From Coemansia sp. RSA 922 (lineage: Eukaryota > Kickxellomycota > Kickxellomycetes > Kickxellales > Kickxellaceae): a stretch of 24,350 bases of DNA. Each line of letters begins with the position of its first letter. Position 1 is the stretch's first letter. Below, piece after piece: positions 2,916 through 24,350 of the stretch. The stretch is taken from assembly GCA_027577415.1 (NCBI GenBank), contig JANBQS010000248.1:1-24350 (forward strand). The letters are read 5' to 3'. The notes under the pieces were generated by a model that saw only the letters and a list, made by a program, of their open reading frames with translations, was not told where the DNA came from and did not search any database. The translations under genes and the position numbers were made by a program.

Positions 2916-3061
2916 ATTTGCGGACAAAAATTAATAAATCAATAGAGGTAAATCTGACAATAGCCGTAGACATGTAGCCACTCTACAGCGTCTACTGATG
3001 ATCGTGTGACCACACCACACCTTAATATGGGCTAGCTGTTGGCTACCTTTGGATTGCTACA

Positions 3062-3087
3062 TGAAGGCACATGTTGAAGGCACATGT
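3062..3087. repeat. Perfect 13-bp tandem duplication
   Basis: TGAAGGCACATGT occurs twice head to tail (3062-3074 and 3075-3087), directly abutting the 41-bp repeat shared with microgene 2. It looks like replication slippage at a duplication edge. Confidence 0.9.
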
Positions 3088-3121
3088 CGTTGCATATCAC
3101 AAGGCTATCCCAACAATAAAC
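3081..3121 (+). repeat. 41-bp direct repeat, copy 1 (upstream of microgene 1)
   Basis: By hand alignment this matches 4077-4117 at 37 of 41 positions. It starts CACATGTCGTTGCATATC and ends CAACAATAAAC in both places. It lies 334 bp before the microgene 1 ATG; its partner lies 384 bp before the microgene 2 ATG. A second short match follows each copy (3145-3162 against 4174-4191, around AATGCT..TGGCCAT). Confidence 0.85.
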
Positions 3122-3275
3122 TCATTTTTAGTTCTTTGATAAATAATGCTCATGGCCATGTAATTTCTGCAAAACGACCTGCTGCCTAGTTTGAATTATA
3201 ATTGTACAATTAGCTAAGCCTACAGGTTGGGTTTTCACATACGGCTCAGCCTGGCCGACTTTTAGTAAAGTTGTC

Positions 3276-3285
3276 TATAAATAGG
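3276..3285 (+). promoter_or_regulatory. TATA box of zinc-finger microgene 1
   Basis: TATAAATAGG, 139 bp upstream of the ATG at 3415. A near-consensus TATA element at almost the same distance precedes each of the other five microgenes. Confidence 0.65.
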
Positions 3286-3414
3286 CGACAATTGGGCGTC
3301 CGTTTGCCGAGGAGGACTATGCACAATTGTGTTCATATTTCTAATACACCCTGACGAGCACCAAGATAGCTACCCTAAACTATACATACTGTCTAAGTTT
3401 CTCGCTACATTGAC

Positions 3415-3531
3415 ATGAATAAAGATAATTGGCCCAGACCATGCCTAATTTGTTGGAAGGTACTAGGCTCGGACTTGGAAGCGGCCGATCACTTTAAAAA
3501 ATGCCACCCCGAGTTGTTCAAAGATCGTTAA
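3415..3531 (+). CDS. Single C2H2 zinc-finger microprotein 1 (38 aa)
   Basis: ATG at 3415 to TAA at 3529-3531. The peptide is little more than one zinc finger: Cys10-x2-Cys13-x12-His26-x4-His31, with Leu17 at the usual Phe position and Ala23 where classical fingers have Leu. A Cys also sits at 30, and the second His is followed by Pro (HPELFKDR tail). No signal peptide or membrane segment is visible. It is the first of six same-strand microgenes with the same finger spacing. Its leader just before the ATG (3364-3414, TAGCTACCCTAAACTA...) resembles the leader of microgene 2. Function is unknown; one finger alone is usually too little for specific DNA binding, so protein or ubiquitin binding is equally possible. 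Confidence 0.75.
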   Translation: MNKDNWPRPCLICWKVLGSDLEAADHFKKCHPELFKDR

Positions 3532-3804
3532 GCGATGAAATGGCTATAATTGTTTGCAGATGGTTTATTCAATATACTTAACTCGTTATTGAGTGTTATT
3601 CTAGTTGTCTTGTAATTAAATATTCGACTTTATAGCTACAAATTTGTCAAATCGGCATTTCATTTGACCGACTAGCTGACTGAGGAGAACACGTTAATAT
3701 TTGCCCCAGAACCGACTAAAGCCCCGCCCTTAGTTTCTTCTGCCTCTTCTTCTTTTTAGCCTATAACTTCAGGTATTGAGCCCTCACGCTCTGGGCGTGC
3801 CCGT

Positions 3805-3828
3805 CCCCGCCTCTGTTAATAGGCGGGG
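3805..3828. repeat. GC-rich inverted repeat (hairpin)
   Basis: CCCCGCCT (3805-3812), an 8-nt AT-rich loop, then AGGCGGGG (3821-3828): perfect 8-bp arms in otherwise AT-rich DNA. It could be a transcript hairpin or the remnant of a mobile element; nothing nearby decides which. Confidence 0.7.
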
Positions 3829-3959
3829 CGGCAAATTACTTTTTCAAGCTGTCTTTTGTGTTTTCCCCCTGAATTAGATAAGCTGACCCATCAGCCTTGG
3901 GCGGTTCCTAGTCTAGTATTGACAAACTTTCCCACGTCAGCCCTTCGGCTATTATCCTT

Positions 3960-3978
3960 GACCATAAAATATATGGTC
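3960..3978. repeat. Short inverted repeat
   Basis: GACCATA, a 5-nt loop, then TATGGTC: perfect 7-bp arms, about 130 bp after the GC-rich hairpin. Role unknown. Confidence 0.6.
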
Positions 3979-4076
3979 GTCCTTGTCAAGTGATCCACTC
4001 TTGTCAAATTTTGTTTAGTTTCTCAGCAATCCGCATCCATGCGTGTACGTCTGTTTTTTGTTTTTTTTTTTTTCCT

Positions 4077-4117
4077 CACATGTCGTTGCATATCGCTGGG
4101 CTATTCCAACAATAAAC
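4077..4117 (+). repeat. 41-bp direct repeat, copy 2 (upstream of microgene 2)
   Basis: Partner of 3081-3121 (37 of 41 positions equal by hand). With the shared leader and finger, it shows that microgenes 1 and 2 come from duplication of a unit that included upstream DNA. Confidence 0.85.
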
Positions 4118-4326
4118 GTACAACTTCACATTGTCTAGTTTTGTTTGATGACCAATCACGCGGTTGTTTTGAGAATGCTTGTGGCCATTTACTAGCCGGA
4201 ATAAATTCTTTCATCCGTTTCTAGAATGTTGTATATCGTGAACTGCAATTGTACTACTACTCTGGCTTTCCTCGTGGTTGAGCGTTTTCCTTTAGCTTGG
4301 TCAGATTTACATTTAGCTATGATTGT

Positions 4327-4337
4327 TATAAAAAGGG
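4327..4337 (+). promoter_or_regulatory. TATA box of zinc-finger microgene 2
   Basis: TATAAAAAGGG, 134 bp upstream of the ATG at 4461. The preceding bases (TTTAGCTATGATTGT) closely match those before the microgene 3 TATA box (TTAAGCTAGCATTGC), so the core promoters look homologous. Confidence 0.7.
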
Positions 4338-4460
4338 CAGCGATAAGGATGTCCATGTGCCTAGAGGAGTCTCGTTTATAAACTAATTTTCTCCTAACAA
4401 ACACCGCACTAGCTACACTAAACTACAAATACTGACCGAGTTGTTCATTACATTGGCACG

Positions 4461-4586
4461 ATGAAAGAAAATGCTCCCTGCCTATGCCCGGTATGTGGGA
4501 AGATGTTTGGATCGGAGAAAGAAGCAGTCGATCACTGCCATGAACAGCACCCCGAGTTAGTAGAATATATTAAACTGCTCTTGTAG
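4461..4586 (+). CDS. Single C2H2 zinc-finger microprotein 2 (41 aa)
   Basis: ATG at 4461 to TAG at 4584-4586. This is the most canonical finger of the set: Cys9-Pro-Val-Cys12-Gly-Lys-Met-Phe16, then His25-x4-His30, giving C-x2-C-x3-F and C-x2-C-x12-H-x4-H. Ala22 replaces the classical core Leu, and HPEL follows the last His as in microprotein 1. Cysteines also occur at 7 and 26. The hydrophobic tail (VEYIKLLL) could be a short docking helix. The leader (4408-4460) and upstream repeat match microgene 1, so these two are the clearest sister pair. No localisation signal is visible. Function is not inferable from sequence. Confidence 0.78.
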   Translation: MKENAPCLCPVCGKMFGSEKEAVDHCHEQHPELVEYIKLLL

Positions 4587-5029
4587 CTATGATTGTTCAC
4601 ATATAACAATTCAATACATATATCTTTACTCTGTGCAATTCAAAACTATTACAATTTTCTGATTTTGTTTATGAATACATTGTTTTGTCCGAGTTCATAC
4701 ATGGGAGTTCGCGTATAGCGAATAAATGTATTTCCGACAAAACACGAGTGATAGATAGAGACCAAGATAATTATTGGAGGACTGCTAGCTTGGTCCTGCT
4801 CTTAATGGTCGGGCGGCCGGAATGGTGACTCGAACGAGCGGCTACAATAGCCCAGCATAGCTTTCGGACTTTGGTTGACGTTGTTCATAGGTTGTATTCT
4901 AATACAACTTCCTTTTTATTGGTATTTAGAGCCGGTTACTCGCTAGCACAATTATACAATGACCTAATAGTGATCTAATGCTGAGTACCTGCATATCTTT
5001 TGTGTTGGTTTTCTTTAAGCTAGCATTGC
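4587..5029. other. Intergenic between microgenes 2 and 3
   Basis: AT-rich with no credible ORF. It contains the 3' flank of microgene 2 and, near 4790-4860, a more GC-rich patch. A T-loop-like GTTCGAGTC occurs there on the minus strand, but no tRNA cloverleaf can be built around it. Confidence 0.6.
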
Positions 5030-5038
5030 TATAAAAAG
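5030..5038 (+). promoter_or_regulatory. TATA box of zinc-finger microgene 3
   Basis: TATAAAAAG, 126 bp upstream of the ATG at 5156, with upstream bases similar to those of microgene 2. Confidence 0.7.
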
Positions 5039-5155
5039 ACCCAGCTACGGACACATATTCGCTTAGAAAGGCCTCGCTCTACCTTATTAATTACTTGTTA
5101 TATTTCGCGACAAGCGCCACAAGAACTTTGCCTTACTGTAACGACAACTGTAACC

Positions 5156-5278
5156 ATGCGTCATGTTGCCTTGATAATCACAACATATCCCACCTATTGC
5201 TTTATTTGTGGGGTGAATCTAATGTCGAGTGAAGATGCGGTCGACTACTTTGAGGAAAGCCACCCTCCGGTCATATAA
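5156..5278 (+). CDS. Degenerate single zinc-finger microprotein 3 (40 aa)
   Basis: ATG at 5156 to TAA at 5276-5278. The frame and spacing of the family are intact (Cys15-x2-Cys18-x12-[Tyr31]-x4-His36-Pro), but the first zinc-binding His is Tyr, so only three ligands remain. The flanking residues (SSEDAVDYFEESHP) are otherwise very like those of microproteins 1, 2 and 6. The promoter is intact. Either it no longer binds zinc normally, or it has changed role. An AATAAA-type signal lies at about 5353-5358, 75 bp after the stop, and the sequence ATAGCTACAAAT just before it also occurs downstream of microgene 1. Confidence 0.65.
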   Translation: MRHVALIITTYPTYCFICGVNLMSSEDAVDYFEESHPPVI

Positions 5279-5579
5279 CCTAATGTACTTGCCGCTTTAT
5301 TTTTTGTCATTTTTGTTATCTAGCAAAGCGAATGTTGAATTTGATAGCTACAAATAAAATAAATTTTGAATGTCAATTGTATGATAAATATGACACAATA
5401 TTCGTGCACGTAAGGTACACTGCATGTTCAGGAATTCCAAGTACAACATGAAATCTCGAGCATGCGATGTTCTCAAAACAATGACATGTACTGCTAATTG
5501 TACAGCTCTGGATATGTTCATGTTTACTCTCTGTATTCATGCTTTATTGAACAGACCCCACTTAATTCTTTACTTGCCA
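5279..5579. other. Intergenic between microgenes 3 and 4
   Basis: AT-rich spacer. It holds the probable 3' end of microgene 3 (CAAATAAAATAAATTTT near 5351) and the promoter of microgene 4. No ORF of note. Confidence 0.6.
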
Positions 5580-5589
5580 TATAAAAAGG
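5580..5589 (+). promoter_or_regulatory. TATA box of zinc-finger microgene 4
   Basis: TATAAAAAGG, 140 bp upstream of the ATG at 5720; same element and spacing as its neighbours. Confidence 0.7.
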
Positions 5590-5719
5590 CCAACTAGCCA
5601 AGGGAATAACTAGCGAGTACTCATACTATATTGCATAATTTCCATCTCCATCCCAACTGGCGTCAAAAATACCGCACCAATTCGTTCACCATATCGTTTT
5701 CAAGTAACATACCTGCTCG

Positions 5720-5827
5720 ATGACAATGGATTATCCTCGCAAATGCCGTTATTGTGGAATAATTATAAAGTCGGCCAACGATGATAAAGCCCACATCCGA
5801 AACGACCACCCAAACTATCTGTCGTAG
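5720..5827 (+). CDS. Single C2H2 zinc-finger microprotein 4 (35 aa)
   Basis: ATG at 5720 (a second in-frame ATG follows at 5726) to TAG at 5825-5827. The shortest of the family and almost only a finger: Cys9-x2-Cys12-x12-His25-x4-His30 followed by Pro. Ile16 takes the Phe position and Asp22 the core Ala/Leu position, so the hydrophobic core differs from the others. The N-terminus is basic (YPRK). A probable polyadenylation region (GAAATAAAATTTTA) lies near 6016. All four zinc ligands are kept although the sequence is well diverged from microproteins 1-3, which suggests selection on the fold. Confidence 0.75.
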   Translation: MTMDYPRKCRYCGIIIKSANDDKAHIRNDHPNYLS

Positions 5828-6219
5828 CCTCTAAGCATCTCGACAAGTAGTCGGCAGAGCTGGCCTAATTGATTTCTTTTTGTCTAATAGAGCAACGAGC
5901 ATGCATGGTCAATGCTATCTATTAAAACAATACTCCGCCCTCTGTTAGCAATATTAAATGTACAATATCATTGAAGCCATTGTGAAGGTAGCTATTATGT
6001 AACTCTGCGACTGAGAAATAAAATTTTATTATATAGTAACTTTACTTCTTGCGTTTTTGCATTCACGAATTCTATATGCAGCCTGGCCTCTTATTTTACT
6101 TTTGAGGTTAAAGATAGCGTCAATAGTTACGATTCTATCAATGGTCAGAGTCTCTCGTCGTATAATATCATAACCTCTAGTCGCCAATCAGCTAATATAT
6201 GCCCTCTCCAGCTATTTCC
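5828..6219. other. Intergenic between microgenes 4 and 5
   Basis: AT-rich spacer holding the probable 3' end of microgene 4 (near 6016) and a CCAATCA element at 6184, 36 bp before the microgene 5 TATA-like box. No ORF of note. Confidence 0.6.
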
Positions 6220-6228
6220 TTTAAATAG
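6220..6228 (+). promoter_or_regulatory. TATA-like box of zinc-finger microgene 5
   Basis: TTTAAATAG, 118 bp upstream of the ATG at 6338. It is weaker than the TATAAAAAG of genes 2-4 but at the matching position. Confidence 0.5.
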
Positions 6229-6337
6229 CCCTGGTGTCTGGAGCGCAAACACTGTTTTTCCTTACACATATTTTTACATATCCATTTTCTAATTAGCAGC
6301 TACTCTCGTTTATACGACAAACCGATTCCTCATCGCT

Positions 6338-6472
6338 ATGAGTTGTGCTGGTACTTGTAGCAATCTATATATTCCACCTGGAGGTGTGCCACCACTCCTT
6401 GAGTGCGAAGTCTGTGACCTGAAATTCCAGAATTTTGATCAGACAAAAGCTCATTTTGAGGAATATCACTAG
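6338..6472 (+). CDS. Single C2H2 zinc-finger microprotein 5 (44 aa)
   Basis: ATG at 6338 to TAG at 6470-6472. Finger: Cys23-x2-Cys26-x3-Phe30, then His39-x4-His44. The protein ends exactly on the last zinc ligand, so the HP-tail of the other members is absent. The N-terminus is longer (22 residues), with Cys3 and Cys7 and a Pro/Gly-rich stretch (IPPGGVPPLLE). Core position 36 is Thr. As in the other members, the segment between the His ligands is acidic (FEEY). Function unknown. Confidence 0.72.
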   Translation: MSCAGTCSNLYIPPGGVPPLLECEVCDLKFQNFDQTKAHFEEYH

Positions 6473-7115
6473 CTCACAAAGGCCGGACAGTCATAAACGC
6501 TATGCTATCGGCTGGCACAACGTGCAAGACCTCGCGGATATTAGCTTTTTTGGACTCTATCGGTTTTGATTATTATATATTACTTTACATTTTGATTCTG
6601 TTGCAAGGCTTCTTATAGCATATCCGTCTGATCTTCGAGTGGATGGAAGATCGTAATCAATTACATTTCTGAAACGGATTATTACTGCCACGCACATTGG
6701 GGGAAGTGGCTGTTGGGTGTGCACCAGAGCTGCAAAACGACGCACTCAGTCGGCCCGACAGCCCACGTGAAACACTTCCGACCGGGGACCTCCGAGCTGT
6801 GGGCAAAACACCTCAGAGGTGGCGGCTGTGAACAAGCTGCCCTCTACGGACGGCAAGACGCACATTAGGAAATCTTGCGCTCATCCCCAACAAAGCCACA
6901 CCACACTTGTCTGGTCCCTCCTAAATGCGGCTCTGAAAGAGAACAGCCACTAAGCCATTTAAACAAAGCCCTGAGTACGGTTTAATACATTTGCAACCCT
7001 CCATGCTCACTACTTACGCTACCCTATCCAACATGACACCCCATTCTGAGCGTGGCGCAAGGCACGGTAGACGTTGGTAGAGGAGAAATAACGGACTGCA
7101 AGCCCTCCTCTCGTG
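6473..7115. other. Intergenic between microgenes 5 and 6, with a GC-richer patch
   Basis: The first part is AT-rich. From about 6690 to 7110 base composition shifts toward GC and the DNA lacks the T/A runs of its surroundings, as if inserted or of other origin. GCAACCCTCC occurs near 6993 and again near 7131. No terminal inverted repeat, target duplication or transposase could be made out, and the ORFs here look like shadows. Confidence 0.5.
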
Positions 7116-7126
7116 TACATAAAAGC
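7116..7126 (+). promoter_or_regulatory. TATA-like box of zinc-finger microgene 6
   Basis: TACATAAAAGC, 132 bp upstream of the ATG at 7248; an imperfect TATA element at the spacing typical of the array. Confidence 0.45.
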
Positions 7127-7247
7127 TGCTGCAACCCTCCGATCGCAAGTCGTAATTCTTGCCGTTTCTCTCATTTTTTGGAATACTCGTTCTTTTTGCC
7201 GCATTCAGTAACCCTGACGATTGCATTGTTTTATAGCTGTCTGCATC

Positions 7248-7409
7248 ATGATCTTTACCAATCGCATCCAAGCCACTAGATTGGATTTAAATGAAGTAGA
7301 CATAGTTTGCTTTAGATGCAAGCTTCATTTTTATATTGCTGAGGATGCTATCCATCACTTTTATATGTATCACCCAAGAGGGTGGAGACCTCCTCTTCAT
7401 ATATTTTGA
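7248..7409 (+). CDS. Single C2H2 zinc-finger microprotein 6 (53 aa)
   Basis: ATG at 7248 to TGA at 7407-7409. The open frame extends upstream to 7221 but without an ATG, so 7248 is the start. Finger: Cys21-x2-Cys24-x3-Phe28, then His37-x4-His42-Pro, with core Ala34 and an extra His at 27 and 36. The IAEDAI segment parallels SSEDAV of microprotein 3. The N-terminal 20 residues are mixed polar, and the tail (RGWRPPLHIF) is basic-aromatic. It is the last and longest member; its stop lies 240 bp from the stop of the convergent RRB1 gene. Function unknown. Confidence 0.72.
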   Translation: MIFTNRIQATRLDLNEVDIVCFRCKLHFYIAEDAIHHFYMYHPRGWRPPLHIF

Positions 7410-7648
7410 AACTTCAGTTTTTAGCAAATATTAAAATATATTTGTTCAAAATCTAATCCTACGACTAGCCTGGTTGTATGAACTACGGCGCACTAAACAA
7501 GCTTCATATCTCTTCTAATGCTCTTTGCTACTCGGTGGCAAACACTCGACATTAAACTAGATTGAGACATGCATCGACATCATGACGGCTCTCGAATGAC
7601 TTGGTGTTTGGTAAATCAAAGGCTTTGGTTGAGATAAATAATAGGGGG

Positions 7649-20648: not shown

Positions 20649-21071
20649 CTACAAAAAGTCTGAGAAACTTGAGAACTGAAGCTCGGGAACCTTGGGAGCA
20701 TTCAAATATTTAATAATCTCTTTACGCTCCGCATAGTTACCTACCAATTTTCTAACAGTTTCGAATAGTCGTTCTTTAATTTCATCAGTGATTTCAATGT
20801 TTTCAGCGTTTCCCATTGCAACTTTGGCCAGCTGTTCTGCTTTCCCCCTGAATATATAGACGAAACCCTTTTTTTTATGATCTGAGTTCCAATACTCTTC
20901 AAGCGACCTCCATCCATTCTTCTGGATGACAAAGAGGCCATAGTCGAGTGGTGGATTGGCCACTACAGAGAAACTACTACAAGAGTCTATATTCATTCCA
21001 GCAGGGGTATGCGAAACAACTTTGAGGTCCTTTGGAGGTTCTAGCTCAATAAAAAAGTAGCATAACACCAT
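20649..21071 (-). CDS. Small protein of an unrecognised family (member A, 140 aa)
   Basis: ATG 21071, starting MVLCYFFIELEPP. I do not know the family. A central block DHKKKGFVYIFRGKAEQLAK (about 64-83) matches KSDTIYLFRGNSDQL of the interrupted ORF at 22121-22504, and both start M(V)LCY-x-FI. The two are therefore paralogues about 1 kb apart on the same strand. The protein is soluble, slightly charged, with a helical C-terminal half (EIKERLFETVRKLVGNYAERK) that may form an amphipathic helix. No signal peptide or membrane segment is seen. It could be a lineage-specific gene or a piece of a mobile element; nothing adjacent shows which. Confidence 0.55.
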   Translation of the reverse strand: MVLCYFFIELEPPKDLKVVSHTPAGMNIDSCSSFSVVANPPLDYGLFVIQKNGWRSLEEYWNSDHKKKGFVYIFRGKAEQLAKVAMGNAENIEITDEIKERLFETVRKLVGNYAERKEIIKYLNAPKVPELQFSSFSDFL

Positions 21072-21197
21072 ATCAAAGTAAGTATTCTGGAGAATAGGTA
21101 TAGTAGTTGCTCAAAAAGTGAAAATAAGGGCACTAGAGAATTGGTTTACAGAAGAAAGAGTTATTTTCTTGCTGAAGGGATAGCCAGACGAGGTTTA

Positions 21198-21227
21198 AAA
21201 AAGCTGTGCTTTTCCCTTCAGCTTTTT
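21198..21227. repeat. Inverted repeat with 9-bp arms
   Basis: AAAAAGCTG, a 12-nt loop, then CAGCTTTTT. On the plus strand this gives a hairpin ending in a T-run; a role in transcript ending is possible but unproven in a eukaryote. Confidence 0.6.
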
Positions 21228-21784
21228 GGAAAGTAGAAAGGAGTGCCTGCAAGCACGGCTCTTAGCCTCAAAGGACACCCAACCCCCCCTTTTGCAATAG
21301 TGTTGAGACTTTGGAGAGCAGGCGTTTGTCTGCAAAAGTTCCAACCTTTGCACTCTCCCCACTTTCCTCCTTTGGCAAACAGCAAAGAAGCTGAAACCTC
21401 GCCCAACCAATGTACCTCCTTTGAAACAAAGAAACATGGTGAAAAAACTGATGTACACTGTTTCCAAAGTGGAGCGCTTTCGAGTTGGCTACATACTGTT
21501 CAGGTTCTTTTTTTACAAAAGCCCAGTTTATGTTGTCTATGATGCTCAGTTGCATCAATATTCATCAGCATGTCGAATGTGGTCTATCAGCCGGCCTGCC
21601 ACTACTGGTGGCTCTTAGTTGAAAATAAATGTCATTAATATTGTATATAATAATAAAACTGGGTTATAAAATGTAAAGAATAGAAAACAAACTGAAGCAG
21701 TACTCTATTGCGCATAACGCCATTGGGGGTTGCTTGTCACGCAGAATTAGTCAAGATCACTGGATCGGCGGTTCGGGCAAGGGT

Positions 21785-21801
21785 CTGCGGCTTAGCCGCA
21801 G
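21785..21801. repeat. 17-bp near-palindrome
   Basis: CTGCGGCT-T-AGCCGCAG: 8-bp perfect arms about one central base, GC-rich in an AT-rich setting. Candidate protein-binding site or element remnant. Confidence 0.6.
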
Positions 21802-22120
21802 TAGAATGTTGTTATTTAAAAGAGTTTATTGTCGTTTTACAAATAGAACTCTTTATCTTCTCTTTTATTTATTGAATTACATTTTAGTATCACATTGCTC
21901 ACCAAGGGTATCCAAATCGCCTCGATTATAATGAACTGGTTGTACATCGACTCGAGGCTTAATAAGAAAAGTGTGTCAAAGTAAAAGCATCTATTCAATA
22001 CAGCTATGCTAACGGGGCCTTAATACCCAGTGTAGTAATACGAAATGTCGAAGAATAACTGTCCTGTAATGGAAAGGATACTTCAGCCAATTCGATAATA
22101 AAAAAGCTGTTTGCTTAAAG

Positions 22121-22504
22121 CTAGCGTTTCTTCTCCTTATATGCTTCTCTCAAATTTTCAAACTGCTTTAGAGATTCTTCATATCCATTCTTCGAAGTAT
22201 AATTTTCCATAAATTTCAACTGGTCACTGTTTCCACGAAATAGATAGATAGTATCACTTTTAATAAACATTGCTAGTGGGATATCAATTTTCCTAACATC
22301 TATCATTTCTCCTGTCATTTCTCCTGTCATTTCTCCTGTCGTAATAACCTTAACACACTCTCCGATTTTAGTGAGCTCGGTAGCAGCGCCGTCTTTTAGG
22401 CTATCATCATAAATTTCACCAAGGAATCTAGTTTCTCATACATCATAATCAAAAACCTTGGGCGAATCCTCCTGGTCAAAAGTAATAAAAGTGTAGCAAA
22501 GCAT
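22121..22504 (-). pseudogene. Interrupted paralogue (member B) of the 20649-21071 ORF
   Basis: From ATG 22504 (MLCYTFITFD) the frame runs 22 codons, meets TGA at 22438-22436, then continues open to TAG at 22121 (128 codons overall). The C-terminal part carries the YLFRG-x2-DQL block shared with member A. Sequence after the TGA stays protein-like, so a recent nonsense mutation is the simplest reading. The alternative is a short intron of about 49 nt beginning at GTATGA, just before the stop, which would be unusually short for this genome. Three tandem 12-bp units (TGEM repeats) lie mid-gene. Function unknown. Confidence 0.5.
22304..22339 (-). repeat. Three perfect 12-bp tandem units inside member B
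   Basis: The plus-strand unit CATTTCTCCTGT occurs three times in a row (22304-22315, 22316-22327, 22328-22339). Because 12 is a multiple of three, it adds TGEM units without shifting the frame. Confidence 0.9.
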
Positions 22505-22958
22505 TCTGTCAATATACTAATTTGTAGAATCAGTTGTTGATAAATTATTGATAAAATATATCTGTTGTGGTTGTTATGAAAGTGAAAAAAATTAGGACAA
22601 ACAGCACCTTGGAGGTTTTATAGCACAAAAAAGCGGCATCTCCCGCTTGTTTCAAGGACAGACATAAGAAAAATTGTGAACACTTGATACCCTTTTCCCC
22701 CAAGGGAATCCAGAAACAATTATCCACATTCTTTGCTGCAAAGAGCAATTAATAAGAAATGGAATGTACTATGTACTATGCACTATGCACTATCTGAATT
22801 AAATGTTCCTGTGTGCGCAGCATTCTTTTCTACATTCTTTTTTTCGTTTCCACTAGAGCACAAAAGGTCTCTAATCATGCTCTATTAGAGCAGTAGCAAA
22901 TATGTGAATAATAAGATGCCAGGATGCAAGCACACAATGATTTATTTCCTCTCAGCAT
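22505..22958. other. Intergenic: member B 5' flank and permease 3' flank
   Basis: AT-rich, no gene recognised. It includes a 7-bp tandem repeat at 22765-22792. Confidence 0.6.
22765..22792. repeat. Four 7-bp tandem units
   Basis: TGTACTA twice, then TGCACTA twice: four adjacent units with one T/C change. Probably a small slippage-derived satellite. Confidence 0.85.
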
Positions 22959-24350
22959 CTAGCATCGACAGTACCCAAAGTACTGAACCGTTGCTGCAAC
23001 TATAAGAAGAATAATGAAAACAATTAACTGCGAAGTTGCCAACAAGAACATATCGACGAGGAACCCGAGCCACACAGCCACCCAAATGACGCCACCGAGT
23101 GCCGATATTACGTATGCGAGGCAGAATATCGGTCCCACAGGAAACAACCATGCCCGGTACATGCCATCCATTGATTTGGCCACGTTCCGAAATTTTTTAG
23201 TCCACCGAATCTTACAGTGCATAATAGCGACCAATCCCCACATAATATATCCTGACACGCCAATAGCCCCCGCTATAATAGACAGCGAATACTTGGTTCC
23301 AATATTGCTCAGACCCCAGAGCGTCAGCGCCACGACGCTGCCAACGATCAAACAGTAAACCGAGAATTCTTGGCCCTGCCCTTGCCCCAGTGGTTTTCTC
23401 AGAAAGCGCGGTGCCAGCGATCGCATAGCCAAATCCTGAAGTAATGCCGAGGATACGTAGAGCGCCGCGCAACAATCAAACAACGCTGTTACCAAAAGCA
23501 CGGCATTGACTACATCTGCGCCAGCACGCAATCGGGCTTGTTCGAAGATAAAAGTGAAAGTTGAAGATGCTGCCGACTCACCCGCGTTATCGTCGCTCTG
23601 AAACCAAGAGCTGTTGTAAGAAACAACGAGCCCCGTGATAAATATCGAGGTCATGAAGAAAATGGCCAATCCACCACAGACAAAAGCCGGCACGAGACGA
23701 CGACCCCGCGGAGTACAAGTTCTTAGAGCCATTGTGGCAGCGGCTTCGGCGCCGACTATCGAAAAGCCAGAGTATACTGCGGCGCAGGCAACTCCCAAAG
23801 CACCGCCAACAAACGGCGCATCGCCTTGGTGCCAGTTCTCCAACCCGTATTTATGGTCACCAAGCTTGCCCGCTGCTATTAATGATCCGCAGATTAGAGC
23901 CACGAGTATTCCGCACAGCTTGAGCATCGTGAAACTATGCTCAGCTACCGTATAGTACTTTGTGTTAATAATGACAATGGCAAAGCAACACAGGAACATT
24001 GGCAGACACCAGACCGCCGGGTGTACGTGGGGGACCCAGAAATGTAATATATGCCCGAAAGCCGCCACTTCATAGGTGATTATACTGATCCACATAAGCC
24101 AATAGTTCCAAGCCGATGCTGCGCCTACCGTTTGACCCAATACATGAGCGCTAAACAAGTAATAGGGTACGTTATCAGGTATTACGCATCGCAACTCCAT
24201 TAGCGAGGTCATTACCGCATAGAGCGCCAGCATGGTCAATGCAAAGGCTACCAGGGCACCACCGGGTCCAGCGCAGAAAATCGTGAATCCGCCGGCTATC
24301 AAGAACCCCGAACTCAGAGCCCCGCCCAAGACAGATAGTGTGATGTGTAG
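22959..24350 (-). CDS. Amino-acid permease (APC superfamily), N-terminus beyond the window
   Basis: The frame is open from base 24350 to TAG at about 22959, giving 463 or so visible residues; the true start is outside. The first visible part (ITLSVLGGALSSGFLIAGG) corresponds to TM1 of APC transporters, where the unwound GG(S/A)-x-G stretch binds substrate. About eleven hydrophobic segments follow. YSGFSIVGAEAAATMA is the TM6-type block, with the E typical of fungal GAP1/YAT-type permeases. PGGALVAF and the cluster of small residues fit the same class. It would import amino acids across the plasma membrane; substrate cannot be told. No introns in the visible part. Confidence 0.88.
   Translation of the reverse strand, partial: LHITLSVLGGALSSGFLIAGGFTIFCAGPGGALVAFALTMLALYAVMTSLMELRCVIPDNVPYYLFSAHVLGQTVGAASAWNYWLMWISIITYEVAAFGHILHFWVPHVHPAVWCLPMFLCCFAIVIINTKYYTVAEHSFTMLKLCGILVALICGSLIAAGKLGDHKYGLENWHQGDAPFVGGALGVACAAVYSGFSIVGAEAAATMALRTCTPRGRRLVPAFVCGGLAIFFMTSIFITGLVVSYNSSWFQSDDNAGESAASSTFTFIFEQARLRAGADVVNAVLLVTALFDCCAALYVSSALLQDLAMRSLAPRFLRKPLGQGQGQEFSVYCLIVGSVVALTLWGLSNIGTKYSLSIIAGAIGVSGYIMWGLVAIMHCKIRWTKKFRNVAKSMDGMYRAWLFPVGPIFCLAYVISALGGVIWVAVWLGFLVDMFLLATSQLIVFIILLIVAATVQYFGYCRC

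Follow-up and report, generated by a model that had tools for sequence, protein, structure and literature searches.

A stretch of 24,350 nucleotides (nt) from Coemansia sp. RSA 922 (GenBank assembly GCA_027577415.1, contig JANBQS010000248.1; hereafter the window) carries a tandem array of six genes, w1 to w6, each predicted to encode a short protein with a single C2H2 zinc finger. Contig C248, which the window spans entirely, belongs to an assembly of 20.4 Mb and 960 contigs. At the level of the sequence, the array belongs to a family of coding genes in tandem and dispersed copies, with variation in copy number and in the zinc ligands, and one kind of promoter is common to most of its main subfamily. 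We tentatively favor the view that the finger family of Coemansia consists of zinc-stabilized protein-docking microproteins made from independent TATA units, with the array genes switched on together.

The first-pass annotation of this DNA had placed six open reading frames (ORFs) of 35–53 codons on one strand, and all six were recovered on the plus strand at the predicted starts (Table 1). The ligand spacing attributed to them, C-x2-C-x12-H-x4-H, is common to the whole array if Tyr is allowed for the first His of w3; the other five ORFs keep all four ligands, as had been described. Counting ATG-initiated ORFs of 30–60 amino acids (aa) with the strict pattern revealed five between positions 3001 and 7600 and none elsewhere in the window. 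A set of 55,654 bases of non-array DNA from this genome, which included the rest of the window and from which known finger loci were left out by choice, likewise contained none. None was found in any of 2000 dinucleotide-preserving shuffles of 3001–7600, which bears out the earlier view that the spacing is unlikely to be due to chance.

Own-genome protein searches with family members as queries listed 41 finger ORFs, all with their own ATG and stop codon and with products of 31–61 aa. Taking one representative per similar pair left 27 non-redundant members at approximately 10 loci; both counts are lower bounds, since only the best candidates were scored. Contig C538 carries the array a second time, with eight genes. 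Six are counterparts of w1 to w6; the two that the window lacks are an additional w6-type gene and one that lies between w2 and w3. Identity of this copy to the window is 90–95% for the most part and 83% at the last gene. Within the fetched stretches, contig C72 has three finger genes and C61 one, and C3, C636, C660 and C92 have two each, C92 being paired with C492; arrays are also paired between C279 and C69, and single genes lie on C150/C42, C175/C495 and C196. The members fall into two subfamilies, an array type with the pattern YPxxCxxCG...SxxxA..HF...H and a longer type of about 50 aa with the pattern CxxC...F.....F.EHC...H; c150 and c3b are intermediate and were grouped with the second. 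An inner ATG served as the start of h3 and of c636b, and in the 27-member set c69b stands in for its frameshifted partner c279b. The 41 ORFs do not include c69c, whose first His is Asn, or a shortened finger ORF of C279/C69 described below. Two rows that fit the loose form of the pattern and look unlike the family (L014:1551-1706 and L059:2586-2741) were dropped, a match on C299 with no short ORF of the pattern was excluded, and a match at C492:3013-3111 was not used.

The similar pairs within the assembly allowed the ratio of non-synonymous to synonymous substitution (dN/dS), which the first-pass annotation had proposed as a check on orthologues, to be estimated. In 13 of 14 pairs taken together, the proportions of non-synonymous and synonymous differences (pN and pS) were 0.037 and 0.115, and dN/dS was 0.31, i.e. 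below 1 (Fisher p about 2.6e-7, an approximate value as the counts are Nei-Gojobori estimates); the total leaves out c279b/c69b on account of the frameshift. Between the window array and its second copy, 12, 6 and 24 substitutions were located at codon positions 1, 2 and 3, respectively, with 251 sites each. The finger set thus appears to be under purifying selection on average.

In 40 of the 41 finger ORFs, a TATA-like box lies 78–146 base pairs (bp) upstream of the start codon; 30 of the 41 have a strict TATAWAW. When the upstream regions were shuffled, the same 80-bp stretch contained a TATA-like match in 4.5 of 41 cases on average (maximum 13), and in the unshuffled regions three stretches placed elsewhere gave 0, 3 and 3 of 41. 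Among 31 large ORFs (≥250 aa) from 12 fetched sources, some of which are second copies of one another, only 4 had a TATA-like box and 2 a strict one. As far as sequence can tell, each finger gene is its own transcription unit.

These data also bear on whether the fingers could be spurious ORFs or the exons of a single longer gene. The second copy preserves intact all six finger ORFs and 8 of the 17 other short ORFs of the region, a weak contrast (Fisher p 0.048) that leaves some room for spurious ORFs. We regard this explanation as highly improbable, given the absence of the pattern from all 2000 shuffles, the dN/dS of 0.31, the TATA-like box of each ORF, and the insertion or absence of whole units between copies. 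The exon alternative in particular is rejected on the strength of separate starts, stops and TATA-like boxes together with the gain or loss of whole units between copies. Because these features coincide with a dN/dS below 1, the window array is, on this evidence, a real set of separate single-finger genes, and the proposal of a tandem array of such genes stands.

The upstream regions share a further element. The 8-mer AATTGTAC, which is half of the dyad AATTGTACAATT, occurs exactly within 500 bp upstream of 10 of 17 non-redundant genes of the main subfamily, whereas no 8-mer exceeded 6 genes in any of 30 shuffled sets; the dyad was discovered in the same promoters in which it was counted, and this 500-bp 8-mer shuffle test allows for the choice of motif. 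At 76–84 bp upstream of the TATA-like box, AATTGTAC was found in 13 of the 17 genes, exactly in 8 and with a single mismatch in 5, compared with shuffle expectations, from shuffles that preserve base composition only, of 0.07 for exact matches (maximum 2) and 1.6 for at most one mismatch (maximum 6). Non-array DNA contained one exact match in 50,653 bases. Pairwise identity among 12 of the 13 dyad promoters (c72a left out) was 62% at the dyad and 74% at the TATA box, but 35% (ungapped) in the stretch between them, close to the 30% further upstream; the gapped score of the dyad–TATA interval was 0.41 versus 0.32 in shuffles, and some likeness remains there.

A combined dyad–TATA scan of 18 sources gave matches only at finger genes and at one new place, present in both C279 and C69. 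This place carries a finger ORF that ends early, after the first His, in both copies, and that begins 82–94 bp after the TATA box, compared with 118–146 bp in the other main-subfamily genes. The shortened ORF is an out-of-sample confirmation of the putative promoter signature. In addition, a 37-nt block located 330–392 bp before the ATG is common to w1, w2, c72c and c72a, and is weaker in c72b, among the 17 genes compared. Given the shared dyad–TATA signature, the finger genes are probably co-regulated.

Table 1 Positions of the finger genes and their upstream elements in the window
Feature	Positions	Strand	Remarks
w1 finger gene	3415..3531	+	38 aa, C-x2-C-x12-H-x4-H; counterpart h1 intact on C538
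w2 finger gene	4461..4586	+	41 aa; AlphaFold2 model, mean pLDDT 81
w3 finger gene	5156..5278	+	40 aa; first His to Tyr, His kept on C538
w4 finger gene	5720..5827	+	35 aa
w5 finger gene	6338..6472	+	44 aa
w6 finger gene	7248..7409	+	53 aa; two genes of w6 type on C538
TATA box of w1	3276..3283	+	139 bp before ATG
TATA box of w2	4327..4334	+	134 bp before ATG
TATA box of w3	5030..5037	+	126 bp before ATG
TATA box of w4	5580..5587	+	140 bp before ATG
TATA-like box TTTAAATA of w5	6220..6227	+	118 bp before ATG
TATA-like box CATAAAA of w6	7118..7124	+	130 bp before ATG
Dyad AATTGTACAATT	3200..3211		76 bp upstream of w1 TATA
AATTGTAC	4247..4254		80 bp upstream of w2 TATA
AATTATAC (7/8)	4950..4957		80 bp upstream of w3 TATA
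AATTGTAC	5496..5503		84 bp upstream of w4 TATA
37-nt upstream block of w1	3085..3121	+	330 bp before ATG
37-nt upstream block of w2	4081..4117	+	380 bp before ATG; 33/37 identical to w1 block

Within the proteins, His is present at the first His position in 26 of 27 members and at the second in 26 of 27. Two members were modeled with AlphaFold2: the model of w2 folds into paired strands and a helix, as in a C2H2 finger, with a mean predicted local distance difference test score (pLDDT) of 81, and that of w6 has a mean of 66, with residues 21–40 at 83–85. The family profile matches C2H2 fingers in the PDB; a Foldseek search returned no PDB match at E ≤ 0.001. Among the helix contact residues of the 27 members, 43 of 108 are acidic and 7 of 108 are Lys or Arg. 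Other positions are often held as well, namely P (17/27), G (18/27), S (15/27) and D or E at helix position 3 (17/27). The family is thus predicted to fold as a C2H2 finger whose helix face is acidic, and zinc binding is likewise predicted.

This surface bears on whether the products are RNA- or DNA-binding peptides, for instance ribosome-associated or chromatin fingers. Ligand spacing, hydrophobic core positions and fold are those of the classical (Krueppel-type) C2H2 finger, but the Coemansia proteins are single-finger, lack a linker and have an acidic helix face. Because of that acidity, base reading by the finger helix is unlikely, and the mostly negative charge makes nucleic-acid binding as a whole an unlikely role. 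DNA-binding C2H2 factors can be recognized by at least two fingers or basic arms and by a basic or polar base-reading helix, and this combination was not found in the family.

Other parallels may be sought among proteins that bind other proteins. EEA1 has a single C2H2 finger that binds protein, within a large endosomal protein. Our family profile matched the N-terminal finger of EEA1 (PDB 3mjh) with an E of 5.8e-5, at rank 37 of 257, and the single sequence of c150 matched it with an E of only 0.86; EEA1 was not listed among the structural neighbors, which settles nothing. The likeness is that of a single C2H2 finger matched by the profile. Trans-microProteins such as plant MINI ZINC FINGER are described as small single-domain proteins with their own transcription units (PMC6003976, PMC5381583). 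The Coemansia fingers, at 31–61 aa, are likewise single-domain and are predicted to have their own transcription units; compared with MINI ZINC FINGER as described there, they differ in that no larger relative was found in their own genome, among the best candidates scored, and in that they form a tandem, probably co-regulated battery. The finger types also differ, MINI ZINC FINGER being of the ZF-HD type rather than C2H2. Certain small proteins of archaea and of archaeal viruses (6skg_Bo and AFV1p06/2lvh) resemble the family in that the whole protein is approximately one C2H2 finger, but they come from another domain of life, scored low, and gave no indication of a shared ancestor.

Ubiquitin-binding or ubiquitin-ligase adaptor fingers are another kind of protein-binding finger to which the family might belong. 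The profile matches pointing in this direction were weak, lying below the curated cut-off or level with ordinary fingers, and the usual pattern of the ubiquitin-binding zinc finger (UBZ) is not evident; we consider such a role improbable. The six window proteins matched no Pfam family above the cut-off, and when the 27 members were scanned one by one the matches were generic and weak, with a best E of 2.2e-4 (cut-offs available for w2 only). Rfam gave no match at the gathering threshold within the window.

The searches for relatives were likewise negative. Every match of the own-genome searches, among the best candidates scored, lay within an open frame of ≤117 aa, and no larger relative was found. 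In a protein database, w2 gave no candidate sharing three words, and the 27 members gave five candidates, none at E ≤ 1; the best 120 rows for Mpp10 in the same database included 36 Coemansia-named Mpp10 proteins, all among the top 41. Proteins this short are often dropped by gene finders. The lack of a database relative may reflect annotation, lineage restriction or search sensitivity. No description of the family turned up in narrow literature searches. The first-pass annotation had not been able to match the array to a described system, in agreement with the outcome for both the protein database and the literature searched.

The strong retention of ligands invites a comparison with yeast CUP1 metallothionein arrays, in which short metal-binding proteins are encoded by tandem, copy-variable genes. 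The Coemansia family, predicted to bind metal, shares this arrangement, but its proteins are folded fingers with two Cys and two His and divergent sequences, and the Cys clusters of metallothionein are lacking. The family could by analogy serve to buffer or store zinc, as small, cheap peptides co-produced in response to metal or stress, with dosage varied by tandem duplication. The four ligands are nearly always kept while the rest diverges, and tandem arrays with TATA-like boxes whose copy number differs between copies would suit this role. One zinc per approximately 40 aa is poor storage, however, and positions other than the ligands are also often held, as listed above; together with the absence of Cys clusters, this leaves zinc buffering with a small chance of being correct.

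Comparison of paired loci revealed further turnover. Two genes on C72 are absent from the fetched part of C61, and damage was one-sided in three cases, the other copy being intact each time: His to Tyr in w3, His to Asn in c69c, and a frameshift in c279b. Because genes and ligands are lost in one copy and intact in the other, single genes seem dispensable. Differences in presence or ligand loss between copies at three loci would also fit recognition or conflict peptides acting in mating, self/non-self discrimination or intracellular defense. We nevertheless think this function improbable: a Pfam scan of 14 neighboring large ORFs gave no main match to a family linked with toxins, immunity or mating (4 had no match), and such turnover is common in tandem families.

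Pairs such as C248/C538 may be alleles of a heterozygous strain or segmental duplicates. Mpp10 was found at one place in the assembly. The end of the window (20717–24350) has a second copy on C559 in three pieces with 94–96% identity, and none was reported for 7.6–20.7 kb (39 of 98 candidates scored). This uneven coverage suggests partly separated haplotypes, or else duplication. A 161-bp dispersed repeat at 21735–21895 is 83–100% identical to sequences at at least 37 other places and corresponds to a clean gap in the second copy on C559, resembling a polymorphic insertion like a short interspersed element (SINE) or a miniature inverted-repeat transposable element (MITE).

Other observations concern the surroundings of the finger loci. 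A repeat of approximately 165 bp lies near three of them (L011 5360–5523, L041 1596–1759 and L038 6795–6967), with copies about 76–93% identical. DUF4246 genes adjoin two separate finger loci, on C3 and C175 (L038 1383–3191 and L061 1767–3128), which could be chance. In the window, residues 292–661 of the Mpp10 protein are 99% identical to those of the Coemansia sp. S16 protein, an ORF of 591 aa on the minus strand (1152–2927) has a weak vezatin-type match just below the Pfam cut-off, and a perfect 12-bp tandem repeat of 3.2 copies is located at 22303–22340.

Of the roles that the first-pass annotation had raised as speculation, docking suits the data best. If the fingers are protein-docking microproteins, a common dimeric transcription factor would bind the dyad and turn on the array genes together. 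The products would remain intracellular, because their short N-termini leave scarce room for a signal peptide. Zinc would render the finger of approximately 30 residues a stable scaffold, from which the variable, often acidic helix face could dock onto partner proteins, and once docked the peptides may, in the manner of single-domain microproteins, either compete with larger interactions or bridge them. Partners would differ between paralogues, since only the fold positions are held constant.

Several observations weigh against this explanation. Origin from a larger parent protein, usual for microproteins, appears unsupported, as no such relative was found in the genome among the best candidates scored. 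Most of the PDB matches that outscored EEA1 are DNA-binding multi-finger proteins, and the net charge is positive in 7 of 27 members. The dyad is absent from 4 of the 17 main-subfamily genes, w5 and w6 among them, and in the second set none of nine genes has an exact dyad and two have one with a single mismatch, close to the average of 0.9 in shuffles. As for coding constraint, none of the 11 indel events falls in the coding columns, a result short of significance (p 0.13); c150 and c42 differ by two non-synonymous and no synonymous changes; the w1 and w3 pairs are near a dN/dS of 1, with little constraint; and between the paralogues c279c and c279d pN (0.33) exceeds pS (0.25).

The broader idea that these genes form a lineage-specific, co-regulated, copy-number-variable repertoire of parentless docking peptides, built on one scaffold with surfaces of their own and acting as switchable interaction modulators, is possible but more doubtful than docking as such. 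If true, an early-diverging fungus would use many mini-proteins with a shared scaffold to modulate interactions in a switchable manner. The family comprises more than 24 conserved, probably co-regulated genes that seemingly lie outside protein databases despite a well-sampled genus. With its predicted fixed fold and variable surfaces, a position-locked putative promoter, and natural gains, losses and ligand mutants, it would be a good system for the origin of a microprotein battery without a known parent gene, and also for what one zinc finger does alone.

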